A stretch of DNA of 64,000 nucleotides from Myceligenerans pegani (GTDB taxonomy: Bacteria > Actinomycetota > Actinomycetes > Actinomycetales > Cellulomonadaceae). The stretch is from NCBI RefSeq assembly GCF_014892515.1, contig NZ_JADBGR010000077.1, forward strand, positions 1 to 64,000. Direction: 5' to 3'. Of this stretch, positions 9,418 through 61,649 are shown piece after piece. The position numbers and the translations under genes were made by a program. Numbering within the stretch: position 1 is the first letter of the stretch; the number at the start of each line of letters is the position of its first letter. The notes under the pieces are model-generated. The model was not told the origin of the DNA, searched no databases, and was given only the letters and a program-made list of their open reading frames with translations.

Positions 9418-9616
9418 GGGACCTCCCGGTACTCGGAGCGGCCGGGCGGCCGCTTTCGGGGGAGGGTAGGGAGGTGCCGTTATATCGATGAAGACGTGGC
9501 GTTTCCGACGCATTTCGGGGTGTCTCGCCGGTGACCGGCCGCCGCGCGGACATTCGGAGGGCTCGGCGTGAACCTCGCGGGCACGCCGCGCGACTGTACG
9601 GGTGAGGGGAGGCGAG

Positions 9617-12166: not shown

Positions 12167-13750
12167 ATGACCACGAACAGCACCGCTCCCCGCCCGAAAG
12201 CGCCCGACGCGCGACAGCGCCGCACGATCCTGATCACCGTCTGCCTCGCCCTGATGGCCGTCATCGCGTCGGTCTCCGGGCTCAACGTCGCCCAGCCCGA
12301 CCTCGCCGTCACCTTCGGCGTCTCCCAGAGCACCGTCCTGTGGATCATCAACATCTACACGCTCGCCCTGGCCGCGCTTCTCCTGCCCCTCGGCGCGGTC
12401 GGTGACCGCCTCGGCCGCAAGCCCGTGCTGCTGGCCGGCCTGGCCGTCTTCGGCATCGCCAACGCGACGGCGGCACTGGCGCCCTCCGCCGAGATCCTGT
12501 TCGCCGCTCGCCTGTTCGCCGGCGTCGGCGCCGCGATGATCATGCCGATCACCCTCGCTGTCATCACGTCGACCTTTCCCGATGAGGAGCGCGGGCAGGC
12601 CATCGGCATCTGGACCGGCGTGGCCGGCGGGGGCGGCATCCTGGGCATGTTCCTGTCGGCCGCGCTGGTGGACCTGGCGAACTGGCGCTGGCTGTTCGCC
12701 CTGCCCGTCGTCCTCGTCGTCGCCTCGGCCGCCATGGCGATCCGGTCCGTTCCCGACTCCCGTGAGACCTCCACGTACGGCTTCGACATCGGCGGCGCCG
12801 TGACGTCCGCCGTGGCGGCGACCGGGCTCATCGTCGCCCTCCAGGAAGGGCCGGAACGAGGCTGGTCCGATCCCACGACGCTGCTCGGCCTGTTCGTGGG
12901 CGTCACCGCCGCCGTCGGCTTCGTGCTGTGGGAACGGCGACGGCGGGACGCCGCACTGCTGGACGTGCGCCTGTTCGGTGAGCGCGCCTTGGCAGGCGGA
13001 TCGATCACCCTGCTGGCGGTCTTCGGGGTCCAGGCGGGCATTTTCGTCGTCCTGTTCCCGTTCCTCCAGGTCGTCGTCGGCTGGTCGGGGCTGGTATCCA
13101 CCGCGGCGCTGATGCCCATGGCCGTGCTGATGATGGTCACGTCGGGCCTCGCGCCCCGGCTGGCCGCGCGCATCGGCGCCCGCGCGACCATGGCCGCCGG
13201 GGTCGCACTGGCCGGAGCCGGGCTCGCCCTCATGGCCTCCGGGGTCTCCGTCGACGGCGGATACCCCTCGATCCTTCCCGGCATGCTCGCGATGGGAGCC
13301 GGCATGGGCCTGGCCATGACGCCCTCCACCGAGGCCATCACCAGCGCCCTGCCCCGCCACCGGCAAGGGGTCGCCTCCGCGCTCAACGACATCACCCGCG
13401 AGCTCGGCACCGCCCTCGGCGTGGCCCTGCTCGGGGCACTCCTCTCCGCCGGCTACCGCGACGCCGTCGACGGCCGGCTCACCGGCGTCCCCCTGGAACA
13501 GGCCGACGCCGCGCGGCAGGGCGTCGCCAACGCCCTGGACGCCGCACGCCACGCCGGCCCCGACGCCCAGGCCTTGATACGCGCCGCCCAGGAATCGTTC
13601 GTCGACGGCTGGCAGCAGGCGATGTGGGCCGGCGTCGTCGTGATGGCCGCGCTGTTCCTCTACGTCGTCGCTCGCGGTCCACGCCGTCCCGCCGAGGAGA
13701 CGGAGGCGGCCCGGAACCTCGCGGTCACCACGCGCCGGGCGGGCGGGTGA
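12167..13750 (+). CDS. MFS multidrug exporter, DHA2 (EmrB/QacA-like)
   Basis: A 527-aa membrane protein with about 14 helices. Motif A GAVGDRLGRKPVLLAGL follows helix 2, and motif C (VAGGGGILGMFLSAALVDLANWRWLF) with its glycine-rich turn marks a drug:H+ antiporter of the 14-helix type. It exports hydrophobic drugs or antibiotics in exchange for protons. GAGAGGA lies five bases before the ATG. It is divergent from the XRE-cupin regulator, which probably controls it, and convergent with a second XRE gene. Confidence 0.93.
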   Translation: MTTNSTAPRPKAPDARQRRTILITVCLALMAVIASVSGLNVAQPDLAVTFGVSQSTVLWIINIYTLALAALLLPLGAVGDRLGRKPVLLAGLAVFGIANATAALAPSAEILFAARLFAGVGAAMIMPITLAVITSTFPDEERGQAIGIWTGVAGGGGILGMFLSAALVDLANWRWLFALPVVLVVASAAMAIRSVPDSRETSTYGFDIGGAVTSAVAATGLIVALQEGPERGWSDPTTLLGLFVGVTAAVGFVLWERRRRDAALLDVRLFGERALAGGSITLLAVFGVQAGIFVVLFPFLQVVVGWSGLVSTAALMPMAVLMMVTSGLAPRLAARIGARATMAAGVALAGAGLALMASGVSVDGGYPSILPGMLAMGAGMGLAMTPSTEAITSALPRHRQGVASALNDITRELGTALGVALLGALLSAGYRDAVDGRLTGVPLEQADAARQGVANALDAARHAGPDAQALIRAAQESFVDGWQQAMWAGVVVMAALFLYVVARGPRRPAEETEAARNLAVTTRRAGG

Positions 13751-47257: not shown

Positions 47258-48538
47258 TCAGCCGAGGTCGATGACCTCCGTCGTCGTCACGAACGCGTCG
47301 AGTGCCCCGTAGCGGTGGCGCGCCTTGTCGAACCACTCCGGGTACGTTCCGGTGGCGGTGACCCGGACGACCTTGCGCCCGGCGGGCAGCGGCGGGCTGA
47401 CGTAGCGCAGGCCGTGGTCGGGAGCCTTGCTGTAGAAGTCGACCAGCAGGGAATGCAGCACCTGTCCCCGCTCTCCGTCCAGGATCTCGACCCGCCCGTA
47501 GCCGCCCCGCTCGTCCGAGTCGCCCACCACGGCCACGCGGTGGCCCGTGAAGACGGCCTCGGCGGCATTCCCGGCACGATTGCTCCGGAACGCCAGCGGC
47601 GCGGCCCGGCCCGCCAGGTCGGCCGGCGCGCCGGTCCGCGGCGACCAGGACGGCAGGTAGGAGCCCAGCGTCAGCGTGTCGCCGTCGACCGTGAGGGGTT
47701 GCCACACGTACGTGGCCGCCGATCCCTGACGCGGGAACGACCAGCGGTCGCCCATGTACAGGTGGACGACGGCGCCGTCGAGGCGCAGGTCGAGCACGAA
47801 GGTGCACTGCGAGTTGAACGTGAGGGACCCGGCGGGCGCGAGGAGTCCGCGAGACGTCCACGGCCCGGTGATCGCGGGGGCGGAGAGGTAGTAGTTGTCG
47901 TTCCTCTCCCAGCTCGTCTTGTTCGAGAACAGCAGGAAGTAGGTTCCGTCGTGCGTGAGCATCGCGGGGGACTCGCCGCCCTCGGCGACTCCCGAGACGA
48001 CCTTCTCCTCGGCGTGCGTGTAGTCGTCGCTCAGCCGGAAGACGTCGCCCTCGTGCAGCAGCAGGTAGCCGGTACCGTCGGCGTCCTGGAAGGTGCCCAT
48101 GTCCCAGCCGGGCAGCGGTGCTCCCTCGAAGGGCAGCGCGCCGTGGAACGTGTATTCCCCGGCGATCGAGTCGCAGCTGGCCAGGCCGATCCAGGCGTCG
48201 GTGTGGGTGCGGTCGTCGGTGTGCATGTACATCATGAACCGGCCGGTGGACGGGCACCGCATCACCTTGACGCGCTCGCCGAGGCGATCCGGCCCGAGCA
48301 GCCCGCCGGGCTGCTGCGGCAGCACGATCCGCTCGAACTTCCAGGTGACCAGGTCCGTGGAGGAGTAGCAGCTGAACCCGATGAAGGCGTTGAAGTCGTC
48401 GGATCTGTACTCGCCGAAGAGGTAGTACGCGCCGCCCTCCTCGACGATGCACGCGCCGTGCGCGTTGACGGGACGGCCGTCGGTGTCGAACCAGGGGACG
48501 CCGTTGACGATCAGGGCCTCGTCCGGGCTGCCGGTCAT
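47258..48538 (-). CDS. GH43-like glycosidase (exo-beta-1,3-galactanase-like)
   Basis: A 426-aa five-bladed-propeller glycosidase without a signal peptide. The N-terminus DTDGRPVNAHGACIVEEGGAYYLFGEYR with FSCYSSTDLVTWKFERIVL resembles subfamily 24 of GH43, whose studied members are exo-beta-1,3-galactanases acting on arabinogalactan. The proposed general acid lies in the central AEGGESPAML segment. The C-terminal part (residues about 300-426) is a beta-sandwich that may bind sugar. It is last in the third importer operon, after the hairpin at 48565-48595. Confidence 0.75.
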   Translation of the reverse strand: MTGSPDEALIVNGVPWFDTDGRPVNAHGACIVEEGGAYYLFGEYRSDDFNAFIGFSCYSSTDLVTWKFERIVLPQQPGGLLGPDRLGERVKVMRCPSTGRFMMYMHTDDRTHTDAWIGLASCDSIAGEYTFHGALPFEGAPLPGWDMGTFQDADGTGYLLLHEGDVFRLSDDYTHAEEKVVSGVAEGGESPAMLTHDGTYFLLFSNKTSWERNDNYYLSAPAITGPWTSRGLLAPAGSLTFNSQCTFVLDLRLDGAVVHLYMGDRWSFPRQGSAATYVWQPLTVDGDTLTLGSYLPSWSPRTGAPADLAGRAAPLAFRSNRAGNAAEAVFTGHRVAVVGDSDERGGYGRVEILDGERGQVLHSLLVDFYSKAPDHGLRYVSPPLPAGRKVVRVTATGTYPEWFDKARHRYGALDAFVTTTEVIDLG

Positions 48539-48564
48539 GCGGGGATCAGCCTTCCTGTCAGGGT

Positions 48565-48595
48565 GTGGTGCCGGGATCCGGGACCCCGGCACCAC
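48565..48595 (-). other. Intra-operon hairpin downstream of binding-protein gene (third locus)
   Basis: A perfect 11-bp stem, GTGGTGCCGGG (48565-48575) with 48585-48595, and a 9-nt loop between the binding-protein stop and the GH43-like start. It occupies the same position as the 37869-37908 hairpin of the second locus. Confidence 0.65.
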
Positions 48596-48614
48596 GTGTT
48601 CGTGAGGGGGCAGG

Positions 48615-49919
48615 TCAGCCGATGGCCGCCTCGGTCTCGGCGATGAGCTGGTCGGCCGCCGCGTCGGGTGACAGGTTGCCGTACAGGACCTCCTGCGAGA
48701 GGCGCAGGAAGATGGCGTTGATCTCGCTCGCCCCCTCGGGGGGCAGCGGACGCGGGTTCTCCGGCTCCGCGAGCCGCTCGGCGAGGTAGGCCGCGGCCTT
48801 CTGGTCGGCCACGCCCAGGTCGCCCTGGATCTCGGCGAGCACCTCGGGGTTCGGCGGCAGGCCGCGGTCCGCGCCGAGGATCGCGCCCGCCTCCGGCGAG
48901 TTGACGATGAAGTCGATCAGCCTCGCCGCGGCCTCCTTGTGCTCGGAGCTCTCCGCGATGGAGTAGTGCATCGACGGCTTCACCCAGTCGCCGCGCGCCT
49001 CCGCGCCGTCCTCCCCCGGCATGCGCAGCAGCTGCAGGTCGACCTCGTCGTTGAGCGCGCCGACCTGGCCGAGCTGGGTCGCCCACCCCGGCTTGAACGC
49101 CATCTCGCCCCGCGCGAACGCGTCGCCGTCGTGGGTGTTCTCCTCGATCGAGCGCTCGGGCGACAGCATGCCGCCACTCTCCGTGAGGTCGGCGACGTAC
49201 TCCCACCACTCGACGAGGGTTTCCTTGCTGAAGCCCAGCCCGCCGTCGTCGCTCCACAACTGCTCGCCGTGCTGGCGGGCGAAGAGGGTGAAGGGCTCCG
49301 CGTAGAACGACATCTGGCCCGAGCCCACCGCGTCCGGCACGGCCTCGGGGACCTCCGTCGTGAGCTCGGCGTAGTCCTCCCACGACCACGTGTCGTCGTC
49401 GGGCATCTCGAGGCCCGCCTCCTCGACCACGTCGGGGTTCGTCCAGACCGAGTAGGTCGTGAGGCCGCCGGGCACGCCCCAGACCTTGCCGTCCTCGGAG
49501 CTGTCGGTGAGGATCGCCTCGCCGTAGGGGGACAGGTCGAGCACGTCGCCGAACTGCGTGAGATCGGCGAGCTGGCCGTTGCGGCCGTACTCGAGCACGT
49601 AGGGGTCGACCGTCTGGACGACGTCGGGCATCTCGCCGGTCGCGGCCTTCGTGGCCAGCGCATCCCAGTACGCGTCCCAGGTACCGGGCTCGGTCTCGAC
49701 CGTGATGTCCGGGTTCTGCTCCTCGAAGAGGTCGATCATCTCCTCGGTCATGGCGTGCCGGGAGTCGACTCCCCACCACGCGAAGCGCAGGGTGACCTGC
49801 CCGTCGTCGCCACCCTCGCCGGTCCCCTCGTCGCCGCCGGCGCACCCGGCGAGCGCCAGGGAGACGCTGGTCAGGAGCGCCGCCGCCCGGATGCCTCGTT
49901 GCATGTTGTTCCGTGACAC
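48615..49919 (-). CDS. ABC sugar-binding lipoprotein (third locus)
   Basis: A 434-aa solute-binding protein, family 1. The lipobox LAGC has its Cys near residue 25. Segments VTLRFAWWGVDSRHAMTEEMIDLFEEQNPDI and FARGEMAFKPGWATQLGQV fit the family. It delivers an oligosaccharide to the permeases encoded upstream. The start is a GTG at 49919 with AAGGA about 8 nt before; an ATG at 49904 is possible. Confidence 0.92.
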   Translation of the reverse strand: MSRNNMQRGIRAAALLTSVSLALAGCAGGDEGTGEGGDDGQVTLRFAWWGVDSRHAMTEEMIDLFEEQNPDITVETEPGTWDAYWDALATKAATGEMPDVVQTVDPYVLEYGRNGQLADLTQFGDVLDLSPYGEAILTDSSEDGKVWGVPGGLTTYSVWTNPDVVEEAGLEMPDDDTWSWEDYAELTTEVPEAVPDAVGSGQMSFYAEPFTLFARQHGEQLWSDDGGLGFSKETLVEWWEYVADLTESGGMLSPERSIEENTHDGDAFARGEMAFKPGWATQLGQVGALNDEVDLQLLRMPGEDGAEARGDWVKPSMHYSIAESSEHKEAAARLIDFIVNSPEAGAILGADRGLPPNPEVLAEIQGDLGVADQKAAAYLAERLAEPENPRPLPPEGASEINAIFLRLSQEVLYGNLSPDAAADQLIAETEAAIG

Positions 49920-49938
49920 TCTGTATTCCTTTCCTGAC

Positions 49939-49957
49939 GCCGGCCGGAAGGGCCGGC
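49939..49957 (-). other. Short hairpin between permease and binding-protein genes
   Basis: A stem of GCCGGCC (49939-49945) with GGCCGGC (49951-49957) around a 5-nt loop, inside the 42-bp gap between permease 2 and the binding-protein gene of the third locus. It could modulate mRNA stability. Confidence 0.45.
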
Positions 49958-49961
49958 ATGT

Positions 49962-50873
49962 CTACTTGAGGCCCGTCGTCGCGATGCCCTTGACCAGGAA
50001 TCGCTGACCGACGAGAAAGACCACGAAGAGCGGGATCAGCGTGACGACCGACATCGCGAAGAGCGCGCCCCAGTTGGACTCGGACGTGGCGTCGACGAAG
50101 TTCCGCAGCGCGACGGAGACGGTCTGCGTCTCGGGCTTGGTGAGGAACACCAGTTGCGTGTAGAAGTCGCTCCACGTCCAGATGAAGGTGAAGATCGCGG
50201 TCGTGGCGAGCGCCGGGACCGTGAGGGGGAGCATCACCTGGAGGAAGGTACGCCAGTAGCCCGCGCCGTCGATGCGCGCCGCCTCCTCGAGCTCCCTGGG
50301 GATGCCGCGGAAGAACTGCACCATCAGGAACACGAAGAACGCGTCGACGGCCAGGAACTTCGGGACGATGAGCGGGAGGAAGGTGTTCACCCAGCCGATC
50401 GACGTGAACATGATGTACTGCGGCACGATGAGCACGTGGATCGGCAGCATGAGCGTGAGCAGCATGGCCGAGAACAGGACCGGCTTCGCCCGGAAGCTCA
50501 GCCGCGCGAACGCGTAGGCGGCCGTGGTGCACGACACCAGGTTTCCGATCAGGGCGCCGAGAACGATGATCGCCGAGTTCAGGATGTACCGCCCGAAGGG
50601 GTAGGTGAGCCCGTTCCAGCCGTTGGTGTAGTGCTCGAGCGTGATCTCCTCGGGAATCAGGCCGGGGCTGAGGAAGATCAGGTCGTTCGGCTTGAAGGAT
50701 CCGACCAGCATCCACAGCAGCGGGTAGATCATCAGGACGCCGACGACGACCAGCAACGCGTGCTGGAGGACCTTGCGCACCCCGCCCCGCCGCCGTCGTC
50801 CCTGCCGCAGGCTTTCTCCGGGCGCACGACGGGGCGCGACCACGCTGCCGGTGTTCTTGACGTCAGTCGTCAT
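49962..50873 (-). CDS. Sugar ABC importer permease 2 (MalG-like, third locus)
   Basis: A 303-aa permease with six helices after a cytoplasmic basic N-terminus. The EAA loop reads EAARIDGAGYWRTFLQVMLPLTVP, and the C-terminus is VKGIATTGLK. It overlaps the first permease gene by 11 bp. It forms the translocation channel with that partner. Confidence 0.93.
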   Translation of the reverse strand: MTTDVKNTGSVVAPRRAPGESLRQGRRRRGGVRKVLQHALLVVVGVLMIYPLLWMLVGSFKPNDLIFLSPGLIPEEITLEHYTNGWNGLTYPFGRYILNSAIIVLGALIGNLVSCTTAAYAFARLSFRAKPVLFSAMLLTLMLPIHVLIVPQYIMFTSIGWVNTFLPLIVPKFLAVDAFFVFLMVQFFRGIPRELEEAARIDGAGYWRTFLQVMLPLTVPALATTAIFTFIWTWSDFYTQLVFLTKPETQTVSVALRNFVDATSESNWGALFAMSVVTLIPLFVVFLVGQRFLVKGIATTGLK

Positions 50874-51813
50874 AGTGGACCCAATACTTCGAGACGAGGA
50901 AGTTGATCGCGGTGAAGGCCCCGATGATGAGGAGGAGCAGCCAGGCCATCGCGGACGCGTACCCCATCTGGTAGTCGGTGAAGCCGCGCTGGTAGAGGTA
51001 CAGCGTGTAGAAGAGCGTGGAGTCGACCGGCCCCCCGGTGCCGCCGCTGACCACGAACGCCTGGGTGAAGGACTGGAAGGCGTTGATGATCTGCAGCACG
51101 AGGTTGAAGAAGATCACCGGGGTCAGCAGCGGGATCGTGATGCTGCGGAACTGCCGCCAGCGGCCGGCACCGTCGATCGCCGACGCCTCGTAGTACATGT
51201 CGGGGATCTGCCGGAGCCCGGCGAGGAAGATGACCATCGACGAGCCGAACGTCCACACGTGCAGCAGGACGAGCGTGCCCAGGGCCGTCTCCGGGTTCGA
51301 GATCCAGCCCGGGCCGGTGACGCCGAAGAAGCCCAGCACCTGGTTGATCAGGCCGTTGACGCCGAAGAGCTGCTTCCAGAGCACCGCGATCGCGACGGAT
51401 CCGCCGAGCAGCGAGGGCAGGTAGTAGACGGAGCGGTAGAACGCCAGCCCCTTGAGGCCGCGGTTGAGCACCATGGCGAGGAACAGCGCGGTCGCGAGCT
51501 GCAGCGGAACACCGACCAGGACGTAGGTGAAGGTCACGCCGAGCGACTTGTGCAGCCGGGCGTCGCCGAGCATCCGCTCGTAGTTCTCCACTCCGACCCA
51601 CGACGGTTCACGCAGCAGGTTGTAGTCGGTGAACGAGAGCACCAGCGAGGCGATCATCGGGCCCAGGGTGATCAGGACCATGCCGACGAACCAGGGGAAC
51701 AGGAAACTCCACGCCGCGCGCTCCTCCTTGCGCTCCGCGTCCGTGCGCCGGCGGCGGGGGCCGCGCGTGCCGCGTGCGTCGCGCAGATGCCGGAACTCCT
51801 CGACGACGGCCAT
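50863..51813 (-). CDS. Sugar ABC importer permease 1 (MalF-like, third locus)
   Basis: A 316-aa permease with six helices and an unusually basic N-terminal 30 residues. The EAA loop is EASAIDGAGRWRQFRSITIPLLTP. It is the first gene of the third importer operon. The promoter/operator pair at 51938-51998 lies about 130 bp upstream, leaving a long leader. Confidence 0.92.
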   Translation of the reverse strand: MAVVEEFRHLRDARGTRGPRRRRTDAERKEERAAWSFLFPWFVGMVLITLGPMIASLVLSFTDYNLLREPSWVGVENYERMLGDARLHKSLGVTFTYVLVGVPLQLATALFLAMVLNRGLKGLAFYRSVYYLPSLLGGSVAIAVLWKQLFGVNGLINQVLGFFGVTGPGWISNPETALGTLVLLHVWTFGSSMVIFLAGLRQIPDMYYEASAIDGAGRWRQFRSITIPLLTPVIFFNLVLQIINAFQSFTQAFVVSGGTGGPVDSTLFYTLYLYQRGFTDYQMGYASAMAWLLLLIIGAFTAINFLVSKYWVHYDD

Positions 51814-51937: not shown

Positions 51938-51953
51938 TAGTGATCGTTCACTA
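51938..51953. promoter_or_regulatory. Third-locus LacI operator A
   Basis: TAGTGATCGTTCACTA, one of five copies of a TAGTGAWCGWTCACTA palindrome in this locus. It lies downstream of the importer promoter and 20 bp from operator B, so a tetramer could bridge the two. Confidence 0.75.
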
Positions 51954-51966
51954 ATCAGGTTGCCGG

Positions 51967-51998
51967 TCAACTTAGTGAACGATCACCACGTGTGTCAA
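51967..51998 (-). promoter_or_regulatory. Promoter with operator B for the third importer operon
   Basis: On the minus strand TTGACA (51998-51993), an 18-bp spacer and TAAGTT (51974-51969) form a strong promoter. The operator (plus strand TAGTGAACGATCACCA, 51973-51988) occupies most of the spacer and shares its TA with the -10. The site also abuts the start of the divergent LacI gene. Confidence 0.75.
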
Positions 51999-51999
51999 C

Positions 52000-53052
52000 A
52001 TGAGCGATGAGAAGGCCGACCGAGAAGCGATGAGGACAGGGAGCGACGTGACACGATCTTCGACGCGGCGAGCCACGATCATGGAGGTCGCGCGCCTGGC
52101 GGGTGTCTCGCACCAGACGGTGTCGCGGTACCTGAAGTTCAACGGCGAGGGCCTCAAGCCCGTCACCCGCGAGCGGGTGGAGGCCGCGATCGACGAGCTG
52201 AACTACCGCCCGAACCTGCTGGCGCGCTCCATGCGCACCCGGACCACGGGCCGGGTCGCGGTCCTGATCCCGACGCCGGCGTTCAACCCCGCGCGCATGC
52301 TCGCCGGCGCCACCTCGGCCGCGCACGAGGCCGGCTACAGCGTCGAGGTGATCAGCCCGGAGGGCGGCGCCGCCGCGCGCACGGATCGCATCCTGGAGCT
52401 CGCGGACACGCGCCAGGTGGACGGCATCGTCTCCCTGTCCCCCGTGCACGGCGCCCGGATCGAGGAACTGGCCTCCGACATCCCCGTCGTCGTCTCGGAG
52501 GACTTCGACGACGAGATGCGCAGCATCGGCGTGCTGGCGGACGCGGCCCCGGTGACCGAGATGGTCACGCACCTCGCCGAACTCGGGCACCGGCGCTTCT
52601 TCCACGTCAGCGGTTCGGCGCAGTTCGCGTCCGCCCGCGCGCGTGCCGAGGTGTTCCGCGAGTCGGTGGAGCGCCTGAGGCTCGAGAACGTCGGCGTCCA
52701 CGAGGGCGACTGGACCGGCGAATCCGGCATCGAGGCCGTGCGCTCCCTGCCGGCCCGCGGCGCCCCGACCGCCATCATCGCGGCCAACGACCTGGTCGCG
52801 GCGGGCGTCATGCGCGGAGCCGTCGAGCGCGGCTGGGACGTCCCGGGAGACGTGAGCGTCACCGGCTGGGACAACAACCAGATCGGCCTGTTCATGACGC
52901 CGTCGCTGACGACCGTCGACGTCAACCTCGAGCAGATCGGCGCACGCGCGATGACGCGCCTCATCGCGACCCTCCGCGACGAGGAGCCACGGCTCGACGA
53001 CGAGCCCCTGAACCGGATCATCTGGCGCGAGTCGACGGCCGCGCCGCGCTGA
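52000..53052 (+). CDS. LacI family transcriptional regulator (third sugar locus)
   Basis: Up to 350 aa. The helix-turn-helix TIMEVARLAGVSHQTVSRYLKFN (about residues 26-48) and hinge ELNYRPNLLARSMRTRTTGRVAVLIP are followed by the sugar-binding domain (IIAANDLVAAGVMRGAVERGWDVPGDVSVTGWDNN). It is divergent from the importer operon and upstream of GH115. Five copies of one palindrome surround these genes. The start is uncertain: GTG at 52048 has GGGAG close upstream and would still include the whole DNA-binding domain, while the ATG at 52000 has no ribosome site. Confidence 0.9.
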   Translation: MSDEKADREAMRTGSDVTRSSTRRATIMEVARLAGVSHQTVSRYLKFNGEGLKPVTRERVEAAIDELNYRPNLLARSMRTRTTGRVAVLIPTPAFNPARMLAGATSAAHEAGYSVEVISPEGGAAARTDRILELADTRQVDGIVSLSPVHGARIEELASDIPVVVSEDFDDEMRSIGVLADAAPVTEMVTHLAELGHRRFFHVSGSAQFASARARAEVFRESVERLRLENVGVHEGDWTGESGIEAVRSLPARGAPTAIIAANDLVAAGVMRGAVERGWDVPGDVSVTGWDNNQIGLFMTPSLTTVDVNLEQIGARAMTRLIATLRDEEPRLDDEPLNRIIWRESTAAPR

Positions 53053-53108: not shown

Positions 53109-53138
53109 TTGACACAAAACGTGATCGATCACTACGCT
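53109..53138 (+). promoter_or_regulatory. Promoter with operator C for the GH115 gene
   Basis: TTGACA (53109-53114), an 18-bp spacer and TACGCT (53133-53138). The operator ACGTGATCGATCACTA (53119-53134) lies in the spacer and shares TA with the -10, exactly as at the other two promoters of this regulon. Confidence 0.75.
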
Positions 53139-53139
53139 A

Positions 53140-53155
53140 TAGTGAACGATCACAC
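53140..53155. promoter_or_regulatory. Third-locus LacI operator D
   Basis: TAGTGAACGATCACAC, immediately downstream of the GH115 -10. It is the fourth copy of the palindrome; its right end is degenerate. Its centre is 21 bp, about two helix turns, from operator C. Confidence 0.65.
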
Positions 53156-53215: not shown

Positions 53216-56200
53216 ATGATCCCTCCTTCTTCTTCCTCGCGCGGGTACCTGATGGACGACGCCGGCGGCGGCGTGACCGTCGCCGAGCGCGGGCACGCCG
53301 TCGGAATCGCCGTCGACGGGGCCGAGACCGCCGCAGTTCACCGGGCTGCGGAGGATCTCGCGGCCGATCTCGCCACCGTCTGCGGTGCCCGCGCGACCGT
53401 CGTCGACCACCCCTCGTCCGCACGCGTCGTCGTGGGCACGCTGGGGCGATCGGCGGCCGTGGACGCCGCGGTGGCGGACGGCACCATCGACGTCGCCGCG
53501 CTGCGCGACCGCGACGGAGCACCGCGCTGGGAGGCCTTCCTCGTCACGGTGCGCGACGACGTGCTCTACCTGGTGGGATCCGACCGGCGCGGCACGATCT
53601 ACGCGATCTACGACTTCGCCGAGAGCGTCGGGGTGTCGCCGTGGCACTGGTGGGGGAAGGTGGAGCCACGACGCCGTGACCACGTCACGGTCGCCCCTGG
53701 CACGCACCACGCCGACTGGCCGTCGGTGCAGTACCGGGGCGTGTTCCTGAACGACGAGGAGGAGTTGTTCCACTGGGCGCGCGCCCACACCGGCGACGGC
53801 ACGATCGGCCCCGAGACCTACCGGCGCGTGTACGAGCTGATCCTGCGCCTCAAGGGCAACTACCTGTGGCCCGCGATGCACGTGGGCGCGTTCAACCACG
53901 ATCCGGAGAACGGCCGCCTCGCCGAGGAGATGGGCGTGGTGATCGGGACCAGCCACTGCGACATGCTGCTGCGCAGCAACGAGCACGAGTTCCGGCCGTG
54001 GGCCGCACGGCAGCCGGAGCCGGTCGAGTACGACTACTCCCTGCCGGGACGCAACCGCGAGAAGCTCCGCGAGTACTGGCGCGGCAGCGTCGAGCAGAAT
54101 CGCGACTACGAGGTCACGTGGACCGTCGGGATGCGCGGCGTGCACGACACCGGCTTCCGGACCGCGGCCATCGACGGGGACGACTCGCTCGACGACGAGC
54201 AGAAGTTCCGCGCGCGCGTCGAGCTGCTGCAGACCGTCATCGACGACCAGCGCTCCCTCCTCGGCGACGTCCTGCAGACGGATCCGGCCTCGCCTCCGCA
54301 GTTGTTCGTCCCCTACAAGGAGGTCCTGCCGCTGTACGACGCCGGCCTCCAGGTCCCCGACGACGTGACGCTGGTGTGGACCAACGACAACTTCGGCTAC
54401 ATCCGCCGGTTCCCGTCGGAGGCGGAGCGGGCACGGTCCGGCGGACACGGCCTCTACTACCACTCGTCGTACTGGTCGAACATGACCACGAGCTATCTGG
54501 CCACGTCCTCGACACCGCCGGCACTGATGAAGTCCGAACTGCGCAAGGCATGGCAGCGCGGCATCCGCACGCTGTGGGTCGACAACATCGGCGGGCTCAA
54601 GCCGCTCGAGCTCGAGACGGAGTTCTTCCTGCGCAGTGCGTGGGAGGCGGGCAAGGAGTCGCGCACCGCGGACGTCCAGGAGTTCACGGCGGCCTGGATC
54701 GACGAGAAGTTCACCGGCGGGCACGGGCGCGCCGCCGCAGCCATTTCTACCGCCTACTACCAGCTGAACAACCAGCGCAAGATCGAGCACCTCACGTCCG
54801 GCGTGTTCTCCCAGACCGCGTACGGCGACGAGTCGCAGCGGCGTCTGGATGCGCTGCGCGACCTGTTCGACCGCACGAACGACATCCTCGCGGCGCTGCC
54901 ACCGGAGCAGCGCGACGCCTTCTTCCAGCTGTTCGCGGTGAAGATCCACATGGCGTACCTCCTGAACGCCCAGTTCGCCCATGCGGATCGCAGCACCCTC
55001 GCCCACCGCCAGGGGCGACTCGCGGCCGCCGACCACCATCTCGAGGTCTCGCGCCGGTTCGACGAGTACAAGCGCGCGCTCATCCACTACTACAACCGCA
55101 CGATGTCGGACGGCGCGTGGGACGGGATGTTCACGCCCGAGGACTTCCCACCCCCGGTCATGCCGCTCCATCCCCCGGCCACGCCGGCGCTGCGCCTCGA
55201 CGACGCGCCCGGCCTCGGGGTCGCCGTGTGGGGCGACGACCTGCCCTCGCCGGCGCCCGCGCTGACGTTCTGGCCGCACGGCGTGACCGACAAGTGGATC
55301 GACGTCTTCAACACCGGCGGCGGCGAACTCGCCTGGACGATCGACGCCGATCCGTGGATCGAGGTGTCGCCCCGATCGGGCGCGACCCGCACCGAGCAGC
55401 GGATCGCCGTGCGGGTCCCCGCCCCCGCCCAGGAGGCCGGACGCTCGGGCACCGTGCGGGTCCGCCGCCCCGACACGGGCGACGAGGTGACCGTCACGGT
55501 CGCGGTCGCCTCCGCCCCGGCGCTCGAGGACGGCTTCACCGGCGCGGTCGAGGCGGACGGTTGGGTCAGCCTGGACCCGTCCCGAGCCGACGCCGTCGTC
55601 GACGGCACCGGCTCGGCGTGGGCCGTCGTGCCGCACCTGGGACGGTACGGGAACGCCGCGGTCGAGGCGCGTCGCACGACGCCCGGGGACGACGGCGAGC
55701 CCGCCCGGCTGGAGCACCGCTTCCACCTGCGCACCGCGGGCGCCCACCTCCTCGAGCTCCATCGCCTGCCCACGCTGAACGCAACGGGCACCATCCGTGT
55801 GGGCGTCGGCGTCGACGGACACTCCCCCACGGTCGTGTCGAGCCCGATCACCGACGAGCACCGCGGCGACTGGGAGCGCGGCATCCAGGACAACGTCGAG
55901 CGGCTGACCGTCCGGCTCCCCCACCTCGGCGAGGGGGCGCACGTGCTGCGCCTGCACGTGATCGACGAGGACGTGACCGTGTCGAAGCTCGTGATCTACA
56001 CCTCGGACATCAGGCCGACGGCGCTGGGCCCGGACTTCAGCGCCCACGTCACGACGGCGCAGGACGACACCACGACGCCCGTCGGTGCCACGACGCCGCG
56101 CGTGTCGCCGTCCGATCCCGCCGATCCCCGGCTGCCCGCCGTCGAGCACGCGGCACGGGAGTTCTACCGGACCGATCCCGCGGTCGTCCCGCCGCCCCCG

Positions 56201-56926
56201 CAGGTCTACGCCGGCCCCGGGTTCTGGGACGGGGACACGACGTTCCGCCGTAACCAGGTCGTGCTGCAGACGGCGCTCGGCCCCGCGCGGCACCGGACGT
56301 ACGCCGGCGGCGGCAAGGACGTGGTCGCCGGACTCGGCTCCGGCGCGGTCGCCGAGCGCGGTGGACGCGTCGCCATCGAGGCGGAGTACGTCCTCGCGCA
56401 GGACGCCGGCGCATGGACCTCTCCCGCCGACGACCCGCACGAGCTCACGTGGACGCACACACAGGCCGAGACAGACGGCCGTACCGGCCTGGCGATGCAC
56501 GTCGTGCCGCGCGGCCTGCGGTGGGAGGATCCGGAGACGGCGCCCGGCATGCACTTCGCGCTCGACGTCGCGACGCCCGGCCGCTACCACGTCTGGCTGC
56601 TCGTGAAGTACGACGACCGCACCGACGACGCCTGCCTCATCGCGCTCGACGGCGCCGTGCAACCGGCGTCCGAGCAGTTCTCCGGTGGGGAGATGTGCAC
56701 CTACGGCACCCGGCAGGTCTGGCTGTGGGCGCTGGTCTCCGATCTGGAGATCACCGCGGGCCGCCACATCCTGTCGGTGCTCGCGCGCAAGTCGGGGCTG
56801 CGCGTCGATCGCCTCTACCTCACCACCGGCGACGAACTGCCGCCGATCGACGCGGGGTGGCGGCCGAGCCCTCGCACCGCGAGCACCCACACCGCACTCG
56901 ACGCCGACGCGGCCGTCGTCCGGTAG
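53216..56926 (+). CDS. GH115 alpha-glucuronidase
   Basis: A 1236-aa enzyme with no signal peptide. GH115 features in order: a small N-terminal alpha/beta domain, SPWHWWGKVEP near residue 141, WPSVQYRGVFLNDEEELFHW, LKGNYLWPAMHVGAFNHDPEN near 217 and VWTNDNFGYIRRFP. C-terminal beta-sandwich domains begin after about residue 700. Family members remove (4-O-methyl-)glucuronic acid from xylan or, in some branches, from arabinogalactan. It acts inside the cell on imported oligosaccharides. It is longer than most described GH115 proteins (about 800-1000 aa) because of an extra C-terminal sandwich after about 1020. Confidence 0.9.
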   Translation: MIPPSSSSRGYLMDDAGGGVTVAERGHAVGIAVDGAETAAVHRAAEDLAADLATVCGARATVVDHPSSARVVVGTLGRSAAVDAAVADGTIDVAALRDRDGAPRWEAFLVTVRDDVLYLVGSDRRGTIYAIYDFAESVGVSPWHWWGKVEPRRRDHVTVAPGTHHADWPSVQYRGVFLNDEEELFHWARAHTGDGTIGPETYRRVYELILRLKGNYLWPAMHVGAFNHDPENGRLAEEMGVVIGTSHCDMLLRSNEHEFRPWAARQPEPVEYDYSLPGRNREKLREYWRGSVEQNRDYEVTWTVGMRGVHDTGFRTAAIDGDDSLDDEQKFRARVELLQTVIDDQRSLLGDVLQTDPASPPQLFVPYKEVLPLYDAGLQVPDDVTLVWTNDNFGYIRRFPSEAERARSGGHGLYYHSSYWSNMTTSYLATSSTPPALMKSELRKAWQRGIRTLWVDNIGGLKPLELETEFFLRSAWEAGKESRTADVQEFTAAWIDEKFTGGHGRAAAAISTAYYQLNNQRKIEHLTSGVFSQTAYGDESQRRLDALRDLFDRTNDILAALPPEQRDAFFQLFAVKIHMAYLLNAQFAHADRSTLAHRQGRLAAADHHLEVSRRFDEYKRALIHYYNRTMSDGAWDGMFTPEDFPPPVMPLHPPATPALRLDDAPGLGVAVWGDDLPSPAPALTFWPHGVTDKWIDVFNTGGGELAWTIDADPWIEVSPRSGATRTEQRIAVRVPAPAQEAGRSGTVRVRRPDTGDEVTVTVAVASAPALEDGFTGAVEADGWVSLDPSRADAVVDGTGSAWAVVPHLGRYGNAAVEARRTTPGDDGEPARLEHRFHLRTAGAHLLELHRLPTLNATGTIRVGVGVDGHSPTVVSSPITDEHRGDWERGIQDNVERLTVRLPHLGEGAHVLRLHVIDEDVTVSKLVIYTSDIRPTALGPDFSAHVTTAQDDTTTPVGATTPRVSPSDPADPRLPAVEHAAREFYRTDPAVVPPPPQVYAGPGFWDGDTTFRRNQVVLQTALGPARHRTYAGGGKDVVAGLGSGAVAERGGRVAIEAEYVLAQDAGAWTSPADDPHELTWTHTQAETDGRTGLAMHVVPRGLRWEDPETAPGMHFALDVATPGRYHVWLLVKYDDRTDDACLIALDGAVQPASEQFSGGEMCTYGTRQVWLWALVSDLEITAGRHILSVLARKSGLRVDRLYLTTGDELPPIDAGWRPSPRTASTHTALDADAAVVR

Positions 56927-56951
56927 GCGCGTGGCCACCGTCCGGTAGGCG
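56917..56951. repeat. 13-bp direct repeat around the GH115 stop codon
   Basis: CGTCCGGTAGGCG occurs at 56917-56929, including the TAG stop, and again at 56939-56951, a 22-bp period. It looks like a small duplication of the end of the gene. Confidence 0.75.
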
Positions 56952-56952
56952 G

Positions 56953-56992
56953 GTGAGCCGCCCGCGCGCAGGTTCACGCGCGGGCGGCTCAC
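56953..56992. terminator. Perfect bidirectional hairpin terminator
   Basis: A perfect 16-bp stem (56953-56968 starting GTGAGCCGCC, with 56977-56992) and an 8-nt loop between the convergent GH115 and multimodular genes. It can terminate both. Confidence 0.8.
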
Positions 56993-57007
56993 TCGTGGCG
57001 CGGAGCG

Positions 57008-60000
57008 TCAGCAGGGCCTGGCGGAGTGCGGGAGCCCGCGGGCGACCGGACGCGCGTCGCCGGCCGCCGCCGGGAGCATCAGCGTCCCGTCGGTGCAGCG
57101 AGCACCGACAGGAGCGTCGGCGCCGGGAGCGTCGGCGCCGTCCTCCGCTTCCGCCGACGCGGCGACGTCGAGGAGCGCCTGCGACACGATCGGCGCGTAG
57201 AACTCCTCGATCGCGGGGAAGTTGGGATGGGTTCCGCTGGGGCGGTTCCCGGAGTCCCACGATCCGGTGGTCTCGGCCGTTCCCGGCAGGCCGTTGTCGG
57301 GCTGGAGGGAGTCGAAGGAGTAGGTGACGCGCATGTCGTCGTCGGTCGTGTCCAGCCCGCTCGTGTACACGTCGGCCACGGGGACGTCCCACTTGGCGAG
57401 GATCTCCAGCTCGAGGTCTCGCAACGTCTCCTGGACCGCGACGTCGCGGGCGCCGAGCTTGGCGACGGCGAGGTAGACGACGTCGGCCGTCGGGTACTTG
57501 GCCTTCAGCCGGGCGATGAGGTCCTCGAAGGCTCCCGCGAACGTGGTGGTGTCGAACGGGCCGTCGAAGCCCTCGGTGACCGTGCCGAGCTTGTCGAGCG
57601 TCTCGGGGTACGCGTCGTTGGTGCCGCCGTCGAAGAGGACGTAGTCGGGGTCCTCGCTCGGCGCCGCCTGCACCTGGGCCGCGATGTCGTTGGCGTCGTC
57701 GATCACCGAGGCACCGTTGACGGCGAACTTGCGGACCGTCATCTGCTCCTGATCGGCGACGAACTCACCGACCCCGGCACGGCGGTACATGTGTCCCGCG
57801 ATGATGCTGTCGCCGAACGTGTACATCGTGGATCCGCTCAGTGCCGCCGGGGTCGCATCCCCGCGGCCGCGGATGACCAGGTCGTCGACCTCCTGGGCGT
57901 TCGTCGTCGTCCGGTACGCGCTCGTCGCGACGATCCGGTGCAGTTGCGCCGCACGGAGGGGCACGCCGGTGTTCTCGACGAGCGTCGCCGAGCCGTCCGA
58001 GATCCGGTAGCTCACCGTGCCCGCGGCGAAGTCGGCCCGCACACGTACCTGGTACGTGTGACCGACGGTCAGCGGCACGGACCGCCAGGTGGGTTCGACC
58101 GCGTACTTCGAGCTCGTGGAGTCGGAGTCGGTCGAGGTGGTCGAGTACCGCAGCTCCCGCGTGCCGTCCGTCTTCGTCGCGCCCTGCAGGGCGAAGACGA
58201 GGCGGCCGTAGCGATCGCGGAACTCGAGTCCGCCCTTGGAGTTCGACTCGCCGTGGTACGACCAGTCGAACGAGACGTCGGCCAGCGAGTCGCGCGCGAC
58301 CACGGGAGCGAACTTCTTCACGGCGACGCCCTCGTTCGACAGACCGTTGGTGAGGCGTAGCACGCCGTCGGCGATCGCCGCGTCACGATCGAAGCCGAAG
58401 GCGGGCACGGCCGCCGGGGAGTCGAACGACTCCGACAGCAGCACGGTGGTCGCCTCGGTCGCCTCGGCCACCTCGCGCAGCGTGATCACGTCCACGCCCA
58501 GACCGTAGCCGCTGCTCGCCGGGTTCTTGCCGGCCACCGTGTACCGGAGGGTGATCGGGCCGGGCTCGGCCACGGTGATCGTGCCGGCCGTGACCGACGG
58601 GAACGCCGCGGTCTCGGCGTACAGGTCGTAGGGCTCCCCCAGGTCGACGCCGTCGACGGAGGCCTGCGCGATGCCGCGGATGCTCGCCGTCCGGTACGTG
58701 GTGCGCAGCTCGTAGGTCCCCGCCCGGGGCACGTCGAGGGTGTACTCGATGTAGTCGCCGACGGCGGTCGCGAGCAGCTTGTTCCAGGCGCCGCCCGACG
58801 CGCCGTCGTCCCACGTCTCGATCGGCTGGTTGGCGACCGGGCTCGACGACTCGGCCTCGAAGCGGTACTCGGCCACGGCCGGCGGGATGTCGGAGGTGGT
58901 CAGCACCCGTGCGACGTCGCCCGCCGGGACGGTGACGACGAGGTCGTCGCCGTCCGTGGAGGTCACGGCGTCGCCCAGCTTCGTCCAGGTGTTGTCCGTC
59001 CGGGCGTTGCCGGTCGTGACGTCCCCGTCGCTCGCGTCGGCGTCATAGGTGCCGAGCTCGACGCTCGCGACGTCGCCGGCGAGGCCGGACAGGCGGAACG
59101 TCGTCTCCTCGGTCGTGCCCAGGGCGACCTCGTCGGCCGCGCGCTCGATGGCGAAGCCGCGGGAGTTCGTGTCGAAGCCGTCCGGATCGCTGACGACGGC
59201 GTAGGAGATGTTCACCGACCGGATCGACTGCTCGACCTCCTCGCCCTGCGGGGCCACGCCCTTCGGGTCGAAGAACTTCAGCGTCGAGCCGCCGACCGCG
59301 TCCGTGTTCCGGGTCGCGAGGTCGTAGCCGACCTTGTTGTAGAGGTTGTTGACGAGAGCGACGCGTGCGATCTTCTGCGCGAAGGTCATCGTTCCCGGCG
59401 TCCCGTCGCCCGTTCTCGCGTCGGCGGGCCGGTCGGTCCGGCCGCAGGCGTCGTCCGGGTTGAACGAGTCGTAGAGGCCGTCACCGTCGAACGAGCACGC
59501 GTTGTAGCCGTTGTGGAGGGCTCCCCCGGCGACCGTCGCGAACTTCTTCTCCGCGGCGTACGTGTTGTTCATACCGTCCTCCATGACGACGGGGAGGTTC
59601 TCCCCCTTGTCGATGTTGAACGGGTGCCGCCCGTTGCCGATGTTGTACATGCGCTCCACGGAGACGTTGTACGTGTCGATGCCGACGGAGTCGAGGTACG
59701 TGCCCACGTCGGGGTTCGCTCGCATCGCCTCGTTGATGTCCACCATGTACGTCGGGGCGTTCTGCTGGTGGTTCACCCGGGTCCACACCGGCAGCGAGCT
59801 CTCCTTGACGCGCCTGCTGAGGTAGTCGTTGTAGTACCAGGTCTGGTACTTGCGGAACTCGGTGTCGCTGGTCACGAGATACCCACCGTGGTCGGCATCC
59901 CCCTCGGTACGCCAGAGGTCGCGCTGCGCGAGCGAGATCGGTGAGCGGGAGATGCTGTCGGTCGCGAGCCCGTCGTCGTTGTCCGGCCACTTGATCGGCG

Positions 60001-61441
60001 TCCCGTTGAGCCTGCCGTTGTGCGGCTCGTTCTGGGTCTGTACCCCGATCAGCGTGTCGCCGATGTTCTCACCGTTCTCGTCGGTGAGGCCGGCGGTGTG
60101 CTCCACGATGGCGTGGAGCATGTCGCCCTCCTTCTCCATGAGCCCCCGGTCCGCGCGGTCGCCGAGGAACGTGTACATCGAGTTCGGATCGCCGATCTTC
60201 TTCTCGAAGAGCGGCGTCCCGATCGAGCCGTTGTAGAGCACGTTCTCGGGGTCCTGGTCCACGGTGGTCATCTGGTAGTCGTGGAACACGTAGAACGGCA
60301 CGCGGTAGTCGGAGGCCCATCCGGTGGAGTCCGAGCCGAACCAGATCACCTCGAACTTCAGCCCGTACTTCTCGGCGTAGCGCACGAGCTTGTCGTAGTA
60401 GGTCCAGTCGATGTTCTCCAGCCTCGCGTCCGAGAAGAACATGCGGGGCCGGAGCGGCTGCTTGAGCCAGCGGCTGTTGGTGTCGCTGTCGTCCCGCGTC
60501 GACGCCGCCGTCTCGAAGGACACCGTCTCGGCGGCGACCGCGGCCTTGTCGGTGCGCTCCGGCGGCGTCGAGGAGGCGACGAGGAAGCTCACGCTCTGCT
60601 CGCCGGCGGCGTGAGCCTGCGCGACATGGTCGGTCACGTCGAGGTCGTAGAAGTACGTCCGCTTGACCCGGTCCCACTTCGGCGTCACCGAGGTGGGCTC
60701 GATGACCGAGCCGTCCGCCGCCTCCAGCTCCGTGCCGTCGTAGGTGATCTCGCCGAGGCCGGCGTCGTCCCAGGTGAGGTCCTCGACGTTCCGGTCGGAA
60801 GGTACAGCGTACAGATTCAGGTAGTGGCTGTAGTACATCCCGCCCGTCCCTGGGAACTCTCCCTGACGCGGGTCGGAGCTGTTCACGTACAGCCGGATCT
60901 TCGACCCGTCCACGTTCTCGACCTCGTCCGGGATGTCGAACCGCACGTAGCCGAGCTGCTGCGCCGAGGCGTCGTCCTCGACCCAGCCGGTCTGGAACGT
61001 CGTCAGGTCGGCCGGCGAACCGTCCGCCGAGATCGTGGCCGTCTGCGTCTGCTCCGGAGTCGTCACCTTGTCCTTCTGCAGGTCGGACCACAGCACCTGG
61101 ACGTTGACGGTGTTGTATCCGTCCTCGGCCACCTGCTTGAAGATCTGCTCGAGGCTCCGCTTCTGCGGGTCGGACGGATCGTGCTCCTCGATGGGCACGT
61201 CCGCCCGGTAGCCGATCTGGGTCAGCAGCTTGTCGGCGCGCAGCTGGATGCCGCTGTACCAGAAGGGTTCTCCGTCGACCAGCAGCACCTGGTCGCGGTC
61301 GAAGCCGCTGCCCGCCGACTTCAGCGCCACCTCGGCGTGAGCCCGCCCGTCCTGCGCCGCCGCCGGGGCTACGACCCCGCCGGCCATCGCCAGCACCACG
61401 GCGCCTACGGCCACGGCACTGCCCGTCGCTTTCGTTCTCAT
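57008..61441 (-). CDS. Secreted multimodular enzyme: clan GH-A-like barrel, CBM and SGNH esterase
   Basis: A 1477-aa secreted protein. Domains in order: signal peptide (1 to about 29); start of a GH35/GH42-like barrel (about 50-120); an inserted beta-sandwich (about 130-330, resembling DNRLRE/CBM96 domains, with YVRFDIPDEV and KIRLYVNSSD); the rest of the barrel with likely acid/base Glu472 in QNEPHN and nucleophile Glu621 in VMEDGM; a CBM35/CBM6-like domain (about 858-988); a LamG-like sandwich (about 999-1194); and an SGNH hydrolase with Ser1212 in FGDS, GGTND and His1405 in GTHPNF. It therefore joins a glycosidase with a likely carbohydrate esterase. The ATG at 61441 has GAGGGAGC upstream. 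Its promoter carries operator E. Confidence 0.82.
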   Translation of the reverse strand: MRTKATGSAVAVGAVVLAMAGGVVAPAAAQDGRAHAEVALKSAGSGFDRDQVLLVDGEPFWYSGIQLRADKLLTQIGYRADVPIEEHDPSDPQKRSLEQIFKQVAEDGYNTVNVQVLWSDLQKDKVTTPEQTQTATISADGSPADLTTFQTGWVEDDASAQQLGYVRFDIPDEVENVDGSKIRLYVNSSDPRQGEFPGTGGMYYSHYLNLYAVPSDRNVEDLTWDDAGLGEITYDGTELEAADGSVIEPTSVTPKWDRVKRTYFYDLDVTDHVAQAHAAGEQSVSFLVASSTPPERTDKAAVAAETVSFETAASTRDDSDTNSRWLKQPLRPRMFFSDARLENIDWTYYDKLVRYAEKYGLKFEVIWFGSDSTGWASDYRVPFYVFHDYQMTTVDQDPENVLYNGSIGTPLFEKKIGDPNSMYTFLGDRADRGLMEKEGDMLHAIVEHTAGLTDENGENIGDTLIGVQTQNEPHNGRLNGTPIKWPDNDDGLATDSISRSPISLAQRDLWRTEGDADHGGYLVTSDTEFRKYQTWYYNDYLSRRVKESSLPVWTRVNHQQNAPTYMVDINEAMRANPDVGTYLDSVGIDTYNVSVERMYNIGNGRHPFNIDKGENLPVVMEDGMNNTYAAEKKFATVAGGALHNGYNACSFDGDGLYDSFNPDDACGRTDRPADARTGDGTPGTMTFAQKIARVALVNNLYNKVGYDLATRNTDAVGGSTLKFFDPKGVAPQGEEVEQSIRSVNISYAVVSDPDGFDTNSRGFAIERAADEVALGTTEETTFRLSGLAGDVASVELGTYDADASDGDVTTGNARTDNTWTKLGDAVTSTDGDDLVVTVPAGDVARVLTTSDIPPAVAEYRFEAESSSPVANQPIETWDDGASGGAWNKLLATAVGDYIEYTLDVPRAGTYELRTTYRTASIRGIAQASVDGVDLGEPYDLYAETAAFPSVTAGTITVAEPGPITLRYTVAGKNPASSGYGLGVDVITLREVAEATEATTVLLSESFDSPAAVPAFGFDRDAAIADGVLRLTNGLSNEGVAVKKFAPVVARDSLADVSFDWSYHGESNSKGGLEFRDRYGRLVFALQGATKTDGTRELRYSTTSTDSDSTSSKYAVEPTWRSVPLTVGHTYQVRVRADFAAGTVSYRISDGSATLVENTGVPLRAAQLHRIVATSAYRTTTNAQEVDDLVIRGRGDATPAALSGSTMYTFGDSIIAGHMYRRAGVGEFVADQEQMTVRKFAVNGASVIDDANDIAAQVQAAPSEDPDYVLFDGGTNDAYPETLDKLGTVTEGFDGPFDTTTFAGAFEDLIARLKAKYPTADVVYLAVAKLGARDVAVQETLRDLELEILAKWDVPVADVYTSGLDTTDDDMRVTYSFDSLQPDNGLPGTAETTGSWDSGNRPSGTHPNFPAIEEFYAPIVSQALLDVAASAEAEDGADAPGADAPVGARCTDGTLMLPAAAGDARPVARGLPHSARPC

Positions 61442-61509
61442 GCTCGTGCTCCCTCGCACCTCATGGATGGACGACGCGAATGTGAACGTTCATGATTTGC
61501 GCTGCAGCG

Positions 61510-61539
61510 AGATTAGTGATCGATCACCATTGCTGTCAA
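61510..61539 (-). promoter_or_regulatory. Promoter with operator E for the multimodular enzyme
   Basis: On the minus strand TTGACA (61539-61534), an 18-bp spacer and TAATCT (61515-61510). The operator (plus strand TAGTGATCGATCACCA, 61514-61529) fills the spacer and shares TA with the -10. The gene lies about 9 kb from the LacI gene but has the same promoter plan. Confidence 0.78.
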
Positions 61540-61649
61540 CGATCCGGGCGACGCCCGATCGGGCAGGGCTGGCCGTGATGTTCCGGCCCGGCCACGCAGG
61601 GCGTCGCCTACCCTCTTCCACGGGGCCCGACGGGAAAGGGTGGGTGGAC

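Follow-up and report, generated by a model that had tools for sequence, protein, structure and literature searches.

A predicted GH35/GH42-like barrel, interrupted by a binding-type module and fused to an SGNH hydrolase, in Myceligenerans pegani: apparent co-regulation with a GH115 alpha-glucuronidase

Analysis of a stretch of 64,000 nucleotides from Myceligenerans pegani (contig NZ_JADBGR010000077.1, positions 1 to 64,000; here called the window) revealed a fusion protein, P0001, in which a glycosidase-type barrel is interrupted by a CBM96/DNRLRE-like insert of ~220 aa and is followed by a CBM, an all-beta stretch and an SGNH hydrolase (Table 1). The original prediction, made from the sequence alone, that a split barrel, an inserted sandwich, a CBM and an SGNH domain are joined on one chain was borne out by profile and BLASTP matches. 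Judged by sequence comparison, the barrel is a divergent GH35/GH42-like domain, and motifs upstream of the gene suggest that it appears to be co-regulated with the GH115 alpha-glucuronidase gene and the ABC/GH43 operon. With a probability of about 0.4, we infer that P0001 is a secreted enzyme with two activities, acting in a LacI-controlled system for a glucuronate-decorated plant polysaccharide, most likely acetylated glucuronoxylan.

The open reading frame of P0001 is real, as indicated by the ribosome-binding-like GAGGGAG located seven bases upstream of its ATG start codon (position 61441), by its codon usage, which gave the top score among the 53 genes called in the window, and by the occurrence of relatives in two other genera. 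The frame contains no internal stops, and P0001 is present at full length as a single copy in the 5.9-Mb genome. The protein probably carries a Sec-type signal, as read by eye, and is probably secreted. Its final ~47 residues (window 57011-57151) had no counterpart in the aligned relatives. Elsewhere in the window, a predicted tRNA-Ala (13479-13559, minus strand) lies inside an ORF of 527 aa (12167-13750, plus strand); one of these two calls may be wrong.

Table 1. Features of the P0001 gene and its neighbourhood (window coordinates)
Feature	Position	Strand	Basis
Whole gene, 1477 aa	57008..61441	-	ORF and translation; relatives L008, L009
Signal peptide, residues ~1-29	61355..61441	-	By eye: charged start, hydrophobic stretch, APAAAQ in translation
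Barrel, first piece, residues ~46-122, to second strand	61076..61306	-	BLASTP to L043 residues 42-119, E 5e-8; GH35_fam across junction after insert removal
Inserted CBM96/DNRLRE-like domain, residues ~123-344	60410..61075	-	Pfam CBM96 over cut-off; most of insert in both relatives; absent from L043
Barrel, second piece, plus the beta region behind it, residues ~345-852	58886..60409	-	BLASTP of 345-595 to L043 131-347, E 1.3e-8; conserved in three split proteins
Glu472, candidate acid/base, GVQTQNE	60026..60028	-	hhalign with VMVQVENE of GH35 protein; GVQIENE of L043
DUF4978 (PF16349) match inside barrel, residues 541-651	59489..59821	-	Profile search
Glu621, candidate nucleophile, LPVVMED	59579..59581	-	Invariant in three split proteins
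CBM, residues 857-989	58475..58873	-	phmmer: Paenibacillus xanthan lyase 6f2p, 3.6e-14; MiXBM 7ehg, 6.6e-12
All-beta region, residues ~999-1192	57866..58447	-	No family over cut-off; strands in low-confidence model; conserved in relatives
SGNH/GDSL hydrolase, residues ~1205-1430; Ser1212, Asn1275, His1405, possible Asp1377	57152..57829	-	PF13472, alignment, residue positions
Promoter-like stretch: TTGACA, then an 18-base spacer whose last part is the palindromic LacI-type operator GTGATCGATCAC (61516-61527), then TAATCT	61510..61539	-	By eye and comparison
Second operator copy, one mismatch	61482..61493	-	Motif search
Operator pair before GH115	53121..53153	+	Motif search
Operator pair between ABC operon and lacI	51940..51986		Motif search
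GH115 alpha-glucuronidase gene	53216..56926	+	PF15979, 5e-110; closest solved 4zmh; no signal sequence by eye
LacI-family regulator	52000..53052	+	Profile match
Genes of an ABC sugar importer (two permeases, solute-binding protein) with GH43, treated as a single operon	47258..51813	-	Profile matches

The barrel had been predicted to be split after its second strand and to resume near residue 345. Both points were confirmed by comparison with L043, a protein from a genome of the same phylum and another class (G112), which contains a DUF4978 barrel without the insert. BLASTP aligned P0001 with L043 in two HSPs (residues 30-122 and 345-595) flanking residues 123-344, and their counterparts adjoin in L043 (42-119 and 131-347); when the insert was excised from P0001, a single HSP was obtained (E 9.5e-20). 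The relative L008 gave the same picture as P0001, both intact and after excision. In the other relative, L009, the BLASTP blocks overlapped and were not cleanly split, and its excised form gave one HSP (2.8e-17). In a four-way MAFFT alignment the initial strands of L043 fell within the insert, and BLASTP and excised sequences were used instead.

The GH35_fam profile (NF051902) behaved likewise. It gave no match in intact P0001 at E 0.1 and, in the intact relatives, matched only C-terminally of the insert. After excision it crossed the junction in P0001 (E 1.9e-7), and the E values of the two relatives changed from 1.4e-7 to 5.4e-12 and from 1.2e-7 to 5.3e-13. The scores of excised P0001 (30.2 bits) and of L043 (84.5 bits; E 6.4e-24) both lie below the cut-off of this profile (500), and Pfam Glyco_hydro_35 had no match in P0001. 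At E 1e-40, GH35_fam was detected in 1 of 118 genomes of the class and in none of 246 genomes of the phylum.

Comparison with solved structures pointed in the same direction. A profile of the three split proteins with the insert excised matched 12 sequences of the PDB (E limit 10); among the best eight of these, seven are named beta-galactosidase and one glycoside hydrolase (E 4.6e-5 to 0.04). When the insert was kept, the profile found two sequences with an E limit of 5, and none of those eight was among them. L043 gave 12 PDB matches, including the same eight enzymes (E 4e-17 to 5e-10). In hhalign, the match to the single GH35 protein used in this comparison (L023) was 77.7% (E 1.9e-5) and covered the second piece only with the insert in place, rising to 93.5% (E 2.3e-7) with both pieces aligned when the insert was removed; the best of 52 other window proteins, included as a control, reached E 0.036. 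The window's own GH35 protein, which belongs to a different branch, matched the barrel no better than unrelated proteins did. Structure predictions were too poor to use (pLDDT 32.8 for the barrel alone, and 36.1 for the all-beta and SGNH part plus one relative). The sequence matches suggest a TIM-barrel fold of the clan GH-A type.

The second half of the barrel matches DUF4978 instead of GH35. PF16349, an uncharacterised domain, scored 27.0, 27.5 and 27.9 bits on P0001, i.e. under the gathering score of 29.3, and 31.0 bits, over this score, in the genome search; the relatives L009 and L008 (51.3 and 50.4 bits) as well as L043 were over the cut-off. DUF4978 was detected in 2 of 321 genomes of the phylum, namely the window's own and that encoding L043. 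The terms DUF4978 and PF16349 were absent from the open-licence papers searched, in which no characterised enzyme with this barrel was found. Asn471 and both candidate catalytic glutamates (Table 1) are invariant across the three split proteins. The BLASTP alignment of P0001 with L043 included the counterpart of Glu472 without resolving the nucleophile position of L043, and Glu621 was not aligned to the GH35 protein.

The insert had been described as a DNRLRE/CBM96-like sandwich of ~200 residues, and this description held, DNRLRE passing its cut-off in the relatives only. Pfam CBM96 (PF24517) scored 31.4 bits on P0001 against a cut-off of 26, with the best stretch confined to residues 262-293, and 42.2 and 44.8 bits on the relatives, in both of which it covered ~162 of 195 insert residues. 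For NCBIfam DNRLRE (NF033679; cut-off 34), the scores were 17.7 bits in P0001 and 42.8 and 34.6 bits in the relatives. The founder of CBM96 is described, in the available part of the source, as binding alginate (PMC9971899), which does not fix the ligand in P0001. The predicted CBM was found at residues 857-989, which resemble the C-terminal module of the xanthan lyase and align with the xanthan-binding module MiXBM (7ehg) over nearly its whole length. Xanthan as a substrate, suggested by this CBM alone, was considered and rejected. The label of a LamG-like domain, given originally to residues ~999-1192, could not be retained, as Pfam and NCBIfam gave no LamG match and no family passed its cut-off there; a sub-threshold CBM_4_9 match was seen at residues 1089-1145 (E 0.0075), and a low-confidence model suggests that the region is all-beta.

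The SGNH domain is matched by the Pfam families PF13472 (9e-13) and PF00657. Its Ser/His motifs had been called complete, and this proved true of GDS (Ser1212), NGAS, GGTND (Asn1275) and His1405, all conserved in L001 and L009, but not of the Asp of DxxH: the position three residues before His1405 is occupied by Ser1402, and Ser was also found there in L003 and L004. This Asp is kept in all seven distant SGNH relatives from viral contigs (two of them identical). Asp1377, in the motif YSFDSL, may substitute for it, and phmmer aligned FDSLQP of P0001 with the DTLHP-type motif of 3dc7. The pairing of a glycosidase with an SGNH domain was likewise supported by the domain matches, while its reading as a polymer deacetylase stays provisional, since SGNH domains cleave many kinds of ester. 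According to the accessible parts of two reports, members of CE2 and CE20 depart from the classic Asp-His pair (PMC9487903, PMC12313940). The seven viral contigs (L024-L030, two with identical stretches) encode proteins of 25-30% identity to this domain, in which DxxH is contiguous.

At E 1e-15, matches to P0001 were found in 4 of 221 genomes of the same family. Three of these contain the barrel, i.e. the window's own genome, that of Isoptericola halalbus (G433) and one of a second genus (G482), and the fourth (G493) matched through the CBM region only. In the phylum, 2 of 296 genomes matched at E 1e-20, one of them via the SGNH domain only. The barrel profile had no match in 394 genomes of the class (E 1e-10) besides the window's own, and barrel relatives were absent from the viral contigs and plasmid records searched. 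A contig search of genomes for relatives returned one locus, that of the I. halalbus esterase. G482 carries barrel, insert, all-beta region and SGNH domain in a single open frame of 1329 aa. In I. halalbus the parts are located on separate proteins: the barrel protein ends before any SGNH domain, and the gene of the separate esterase (domain order all-beta, SGNH, CBM) lies ~38 kb from the barrel gene. GH115 was present in 15 of 220 family genomes, including all three with the barrel, and the chance of such a coincidence is 455/1750540 = 2.6e-4 (calculated by hand with relatedness ignored, the barrel and GH115 searches having drawn 221 and 220 genomes, respectively).

The link between P0001 and GH115 is reinforced by short upstream motifs. 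The pattern GTGAWCGWTCAC, derived from the operator sites listed in Table 1, occurs in five exact copies in the window versus 0.02 expected, and at eight places in the whole 5.9-Mb genome (reversed control, 0). A pair of these separates the ABC operon from lacI, a second pair precedes GH115 and a single copy precedes the P0001 gene; of the remaining three, one marks the start of a GH2 gene that neighbours a LacI gene, one the start of an uncharacterised ORF, and one falls within a LacI-like ORF. Both this pattern and AACGGTTCCA (see below) were first found by inspection, so the chance expectations hold for patterns chosen afterwards. The layout of TTGACA and operator is the same before GH115, the ABC operon and the P0001 gene; in I. 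halalbus, GH115 and the esterase gene are preceded by it with TTGACA slightly displaced. The LacI protein encoded here would be the one that binds the operator. A scan of 56850-61700 for consensus promoters and terminators found 0 and 0. The P0001 gene is divergent from a large BTAD/NB-ARC regulator gene (window 61440-63998), and, depending on the start of the latter, the operator of the P0001 gene lies between the two genes or in the BTAD/NB-ARC leader.

A similar arrangement was observed in I. halalbus, where seven of nine GTGAWCGWTCAC places fall within a lacI/ABC/GH43/GH115 cluster (identity to the window: LacI 91%, GH43 62%, GH115 84%) or before the separate esterase gene, which has a GH115-type operator pair upstream. 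From this pair towards the esterase start (L001 9630-9803), 58 residues match the GH115 C-terminus (58.6% identity, E 2e-19). The stretch L001:9618-9887 combines a GH115-type promoter, an operator pair and what is left of a GH115 C-terminus, as would be expected of a second GH115 gene whose main part has disappeared. At G433:C20:25130-25761, a further two GH115 matches, which are partial and overlap each other, are probably another broken GH115 copy in I. halalbus. No GH115-type operator was found, within one mismatch, in the 20-kb stretch around the I. halalbus barrel gene, which is preceded by AACGGTTCCA (L012, 10386; once more upstream at 8810) and may answer to another regulator. The motif AACGGTTCCA was noticed by comparing the regions upstream of the fusion gene and GH115 in G482; it is present twice before each of these genes, giving four copies in 20 kb versus 0.02 expected. 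The link between fusion and GH115 therefore appears under two different motifs, GTGAWCGWTCAC here and AACGGTTCCA in G482.

At least one exact GTGAWCGWTCAC site was also present in 7 of 14 other GH115 genomes, the surroundings having been examined in that of I. halalbus. In a further genus, two operator copies lie ~9 kb from a GH115 gene (G312:C15:308280-308360). Behind another operator copy (L042, 9653), two short ORFs (8759-9570), one with an arabinofuranosidase C-terminal domain and the other GH51-like by eye, are probably a broken GH51 gene.

The original prediction listed pectin, xylan and arabinogalactan alike as possible substrates. The operator common to the P0001 and GH115 genes narrows this list in favour of a polymer decorated with glucuronate, with xylan as the foremost candidate. 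Extracellularly, the SGNH domain would remove O-acetyl groups, which hinder alpha-glucuronidases when situated beside glucuronate. The clan GH-A-type barrel would release a terminal beta-galactose- or alpha-L-arabinopyranose-type sugar, with Glu472 as acid/base and Glu621 as nucleophile; this activity is a guess from the nearest relatives. Beta-galactosidase-like enzymes can accept alpha-L-arabinopyranosides. The CBM96-like insert, predicted to emerge from the loop that follows strand 2, at the barrel face that carries the active site, would hold the polymer together with the second CBM. The products would be taken up by the ABC importer, and GH115 and GH43 would complete their breakdown inside the cell. 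Neither GH43 nor GH115, unlike P0001, has a signal sequence by eye, which makes plausible a division of labour with deacetylation and trimming outside, import, and glucuronate removal inside. A precedent is the SGNH esterase FjoAcXE, which is encoded in a GH115 locus and is reported to remove acetyl beside methylglucuronate and to raise GH115 activity ninefold (PMC5863359, as far as the available text goes). The accessible part of another source describes, in some primary-wall xylan, a pentose on the glucuronate that is probably alpha-L-arabinopyranose (PMC4528235).

The same protein and mechanism might instead be directed at a plant gum or an arabinogalactan that bears glucuronate; the barrel would then attack galactan side chains as a beta-galactosidase, and acetyl groups would be removed by the SGNH domain. 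We consider this rather doubtful, although several observations would suit it: the barrel is closest to beta-galactosidases, a GH2 matching beta-glucuronidases is encoded near the G482 fusion gene, and the operon GH43 has 3nqh, an entry titled simply Glycosyl hydrolase, as its first match, followed by exo-beta-1,3-galactanases, which are thus among its closest solved relatives. Moreover, a GH115 enzyme, BtGH115A, is described as acting on arabinogalactan in the available portion of PMC13059095; the same portion presents SdeAgu115A as a five-domain enzyme set apart from BtGH115A, and it is to SdeAgu115A (4zmh, 398 bits) rather than to BtGH115A (5by3, 333 bits) that the GH115 of the window is closer. 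Two GH10 genes, located ~7-10 kb beyond the P0001 gene on the same contig, also speak against this alternative, though no exact operator copy was found there. Acetylated xyloglucan, in which the esterase would deacetylate galactose before the GH35-like barrel removes it, is distinctly improbable as the target. The solved sequences nearest to the barrel include Bgl35A (4d1i) and the GH35 entry 7kmn, and a Xanthomonas GH35 enzyme is reported to cooperate with the CE20 acetylesterase XacXaeA on xyloglucan, a polymer that can carry acetyl on its galactose (PMC8245568, in the part available); against this, the operator ties the P0001 gene to GH115, and no xyloglucanase, GH31 or GH95 was over the cut-off among 21 scanned proteins of the window, contig and neighbourhoods (a GH65 protein of I. 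halalbus gave a sub-threshold GH95 match).

The organization of the I. halalbus genes bears on two further explanations. Since its esterase has a GH115-type operator and no barrel, and its barrel protein, ~38 kb away, has no SGNH domain, the barrel could be inactive as a glycosidase in this system, a binding scaffold or a recent fusion, with only the SGNH domain being of importance. This is unlikely in view of the invariance of N471, E472 and E621 and of the motif that the G482 fusion has in common with its GH115. The separate proteins of I. halalbus could also suggest that P0001 was joined artificially from two adjacent genes during assembly or annotation; this was rejected as extremely improbable, because G482 carries the same parts in one frame and the frame in the window is free of internal stops.

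Several elements of P0001 are already known from other systems. Glycosidases fused to carbohydrate esterases, such as GH5 with an SGNH-type CE2, have been described, and so has a binding module inserted in a TIM barrel. The latter is the case in CITase (PMC5408701), where a CBM35 beta-sandwich in a barrel loop takes part in substrate binding; in contrast to P0001, CITase is a GH66 enzyme with its insertion in the seventh loop, and the available part of the report mentions no esterase. The GH35/GH42-type beta-galactosidases (3u7v, Bgl35A 4d1i, 7kmn; NF051902) resemble P0001 in the first barrel half, from the VDG-PF to the NE motif, once the insert is removed, but P0001 scores far below the GH35_fam cut-off, has a DUF4978-type second half and carries ~220 aa after strand 2. 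The xylan esterases FjoAcXE (PMC5863359) and CE20 (PMC12313940), and likewise CE2 (PMC9487903), are SGNH acetyl esterases, the first and some of the second being encoded in GH115 loci; a GH35-like barrel on their chain is not mentioned in the portions of these sources that were available. The combination, the barrel family and the insertion site did not turn up in searches of open-licence papers, none of these searches being aimed directly at the full domain order.

DUF4978 gains a testable identity from these results as part of a GH35/GH42-like barrel. One speculative extension, to which we would give only small odds, is that DUF4978 barrels found a new glycoside hydrolase family and remove a pyranosyl cap (alpha-L-arabinopyranose or beta-galactose) from the glucuronate side chains that primary-wall xylan carries; with neighbouring acetyl cleared by the esterase, these otherwise resistant side chains would be opened to GH115. 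P0001 also adds to the sites at which such a barrel can accommodate a binding-type module, and the operator common to GH115 provides a substrate lead. If both halves work, one protein would perform two steps of hemicellulose debranching, which would be useful for enzyme cocktails and in finding enzymes against capped glucuronate side chains.
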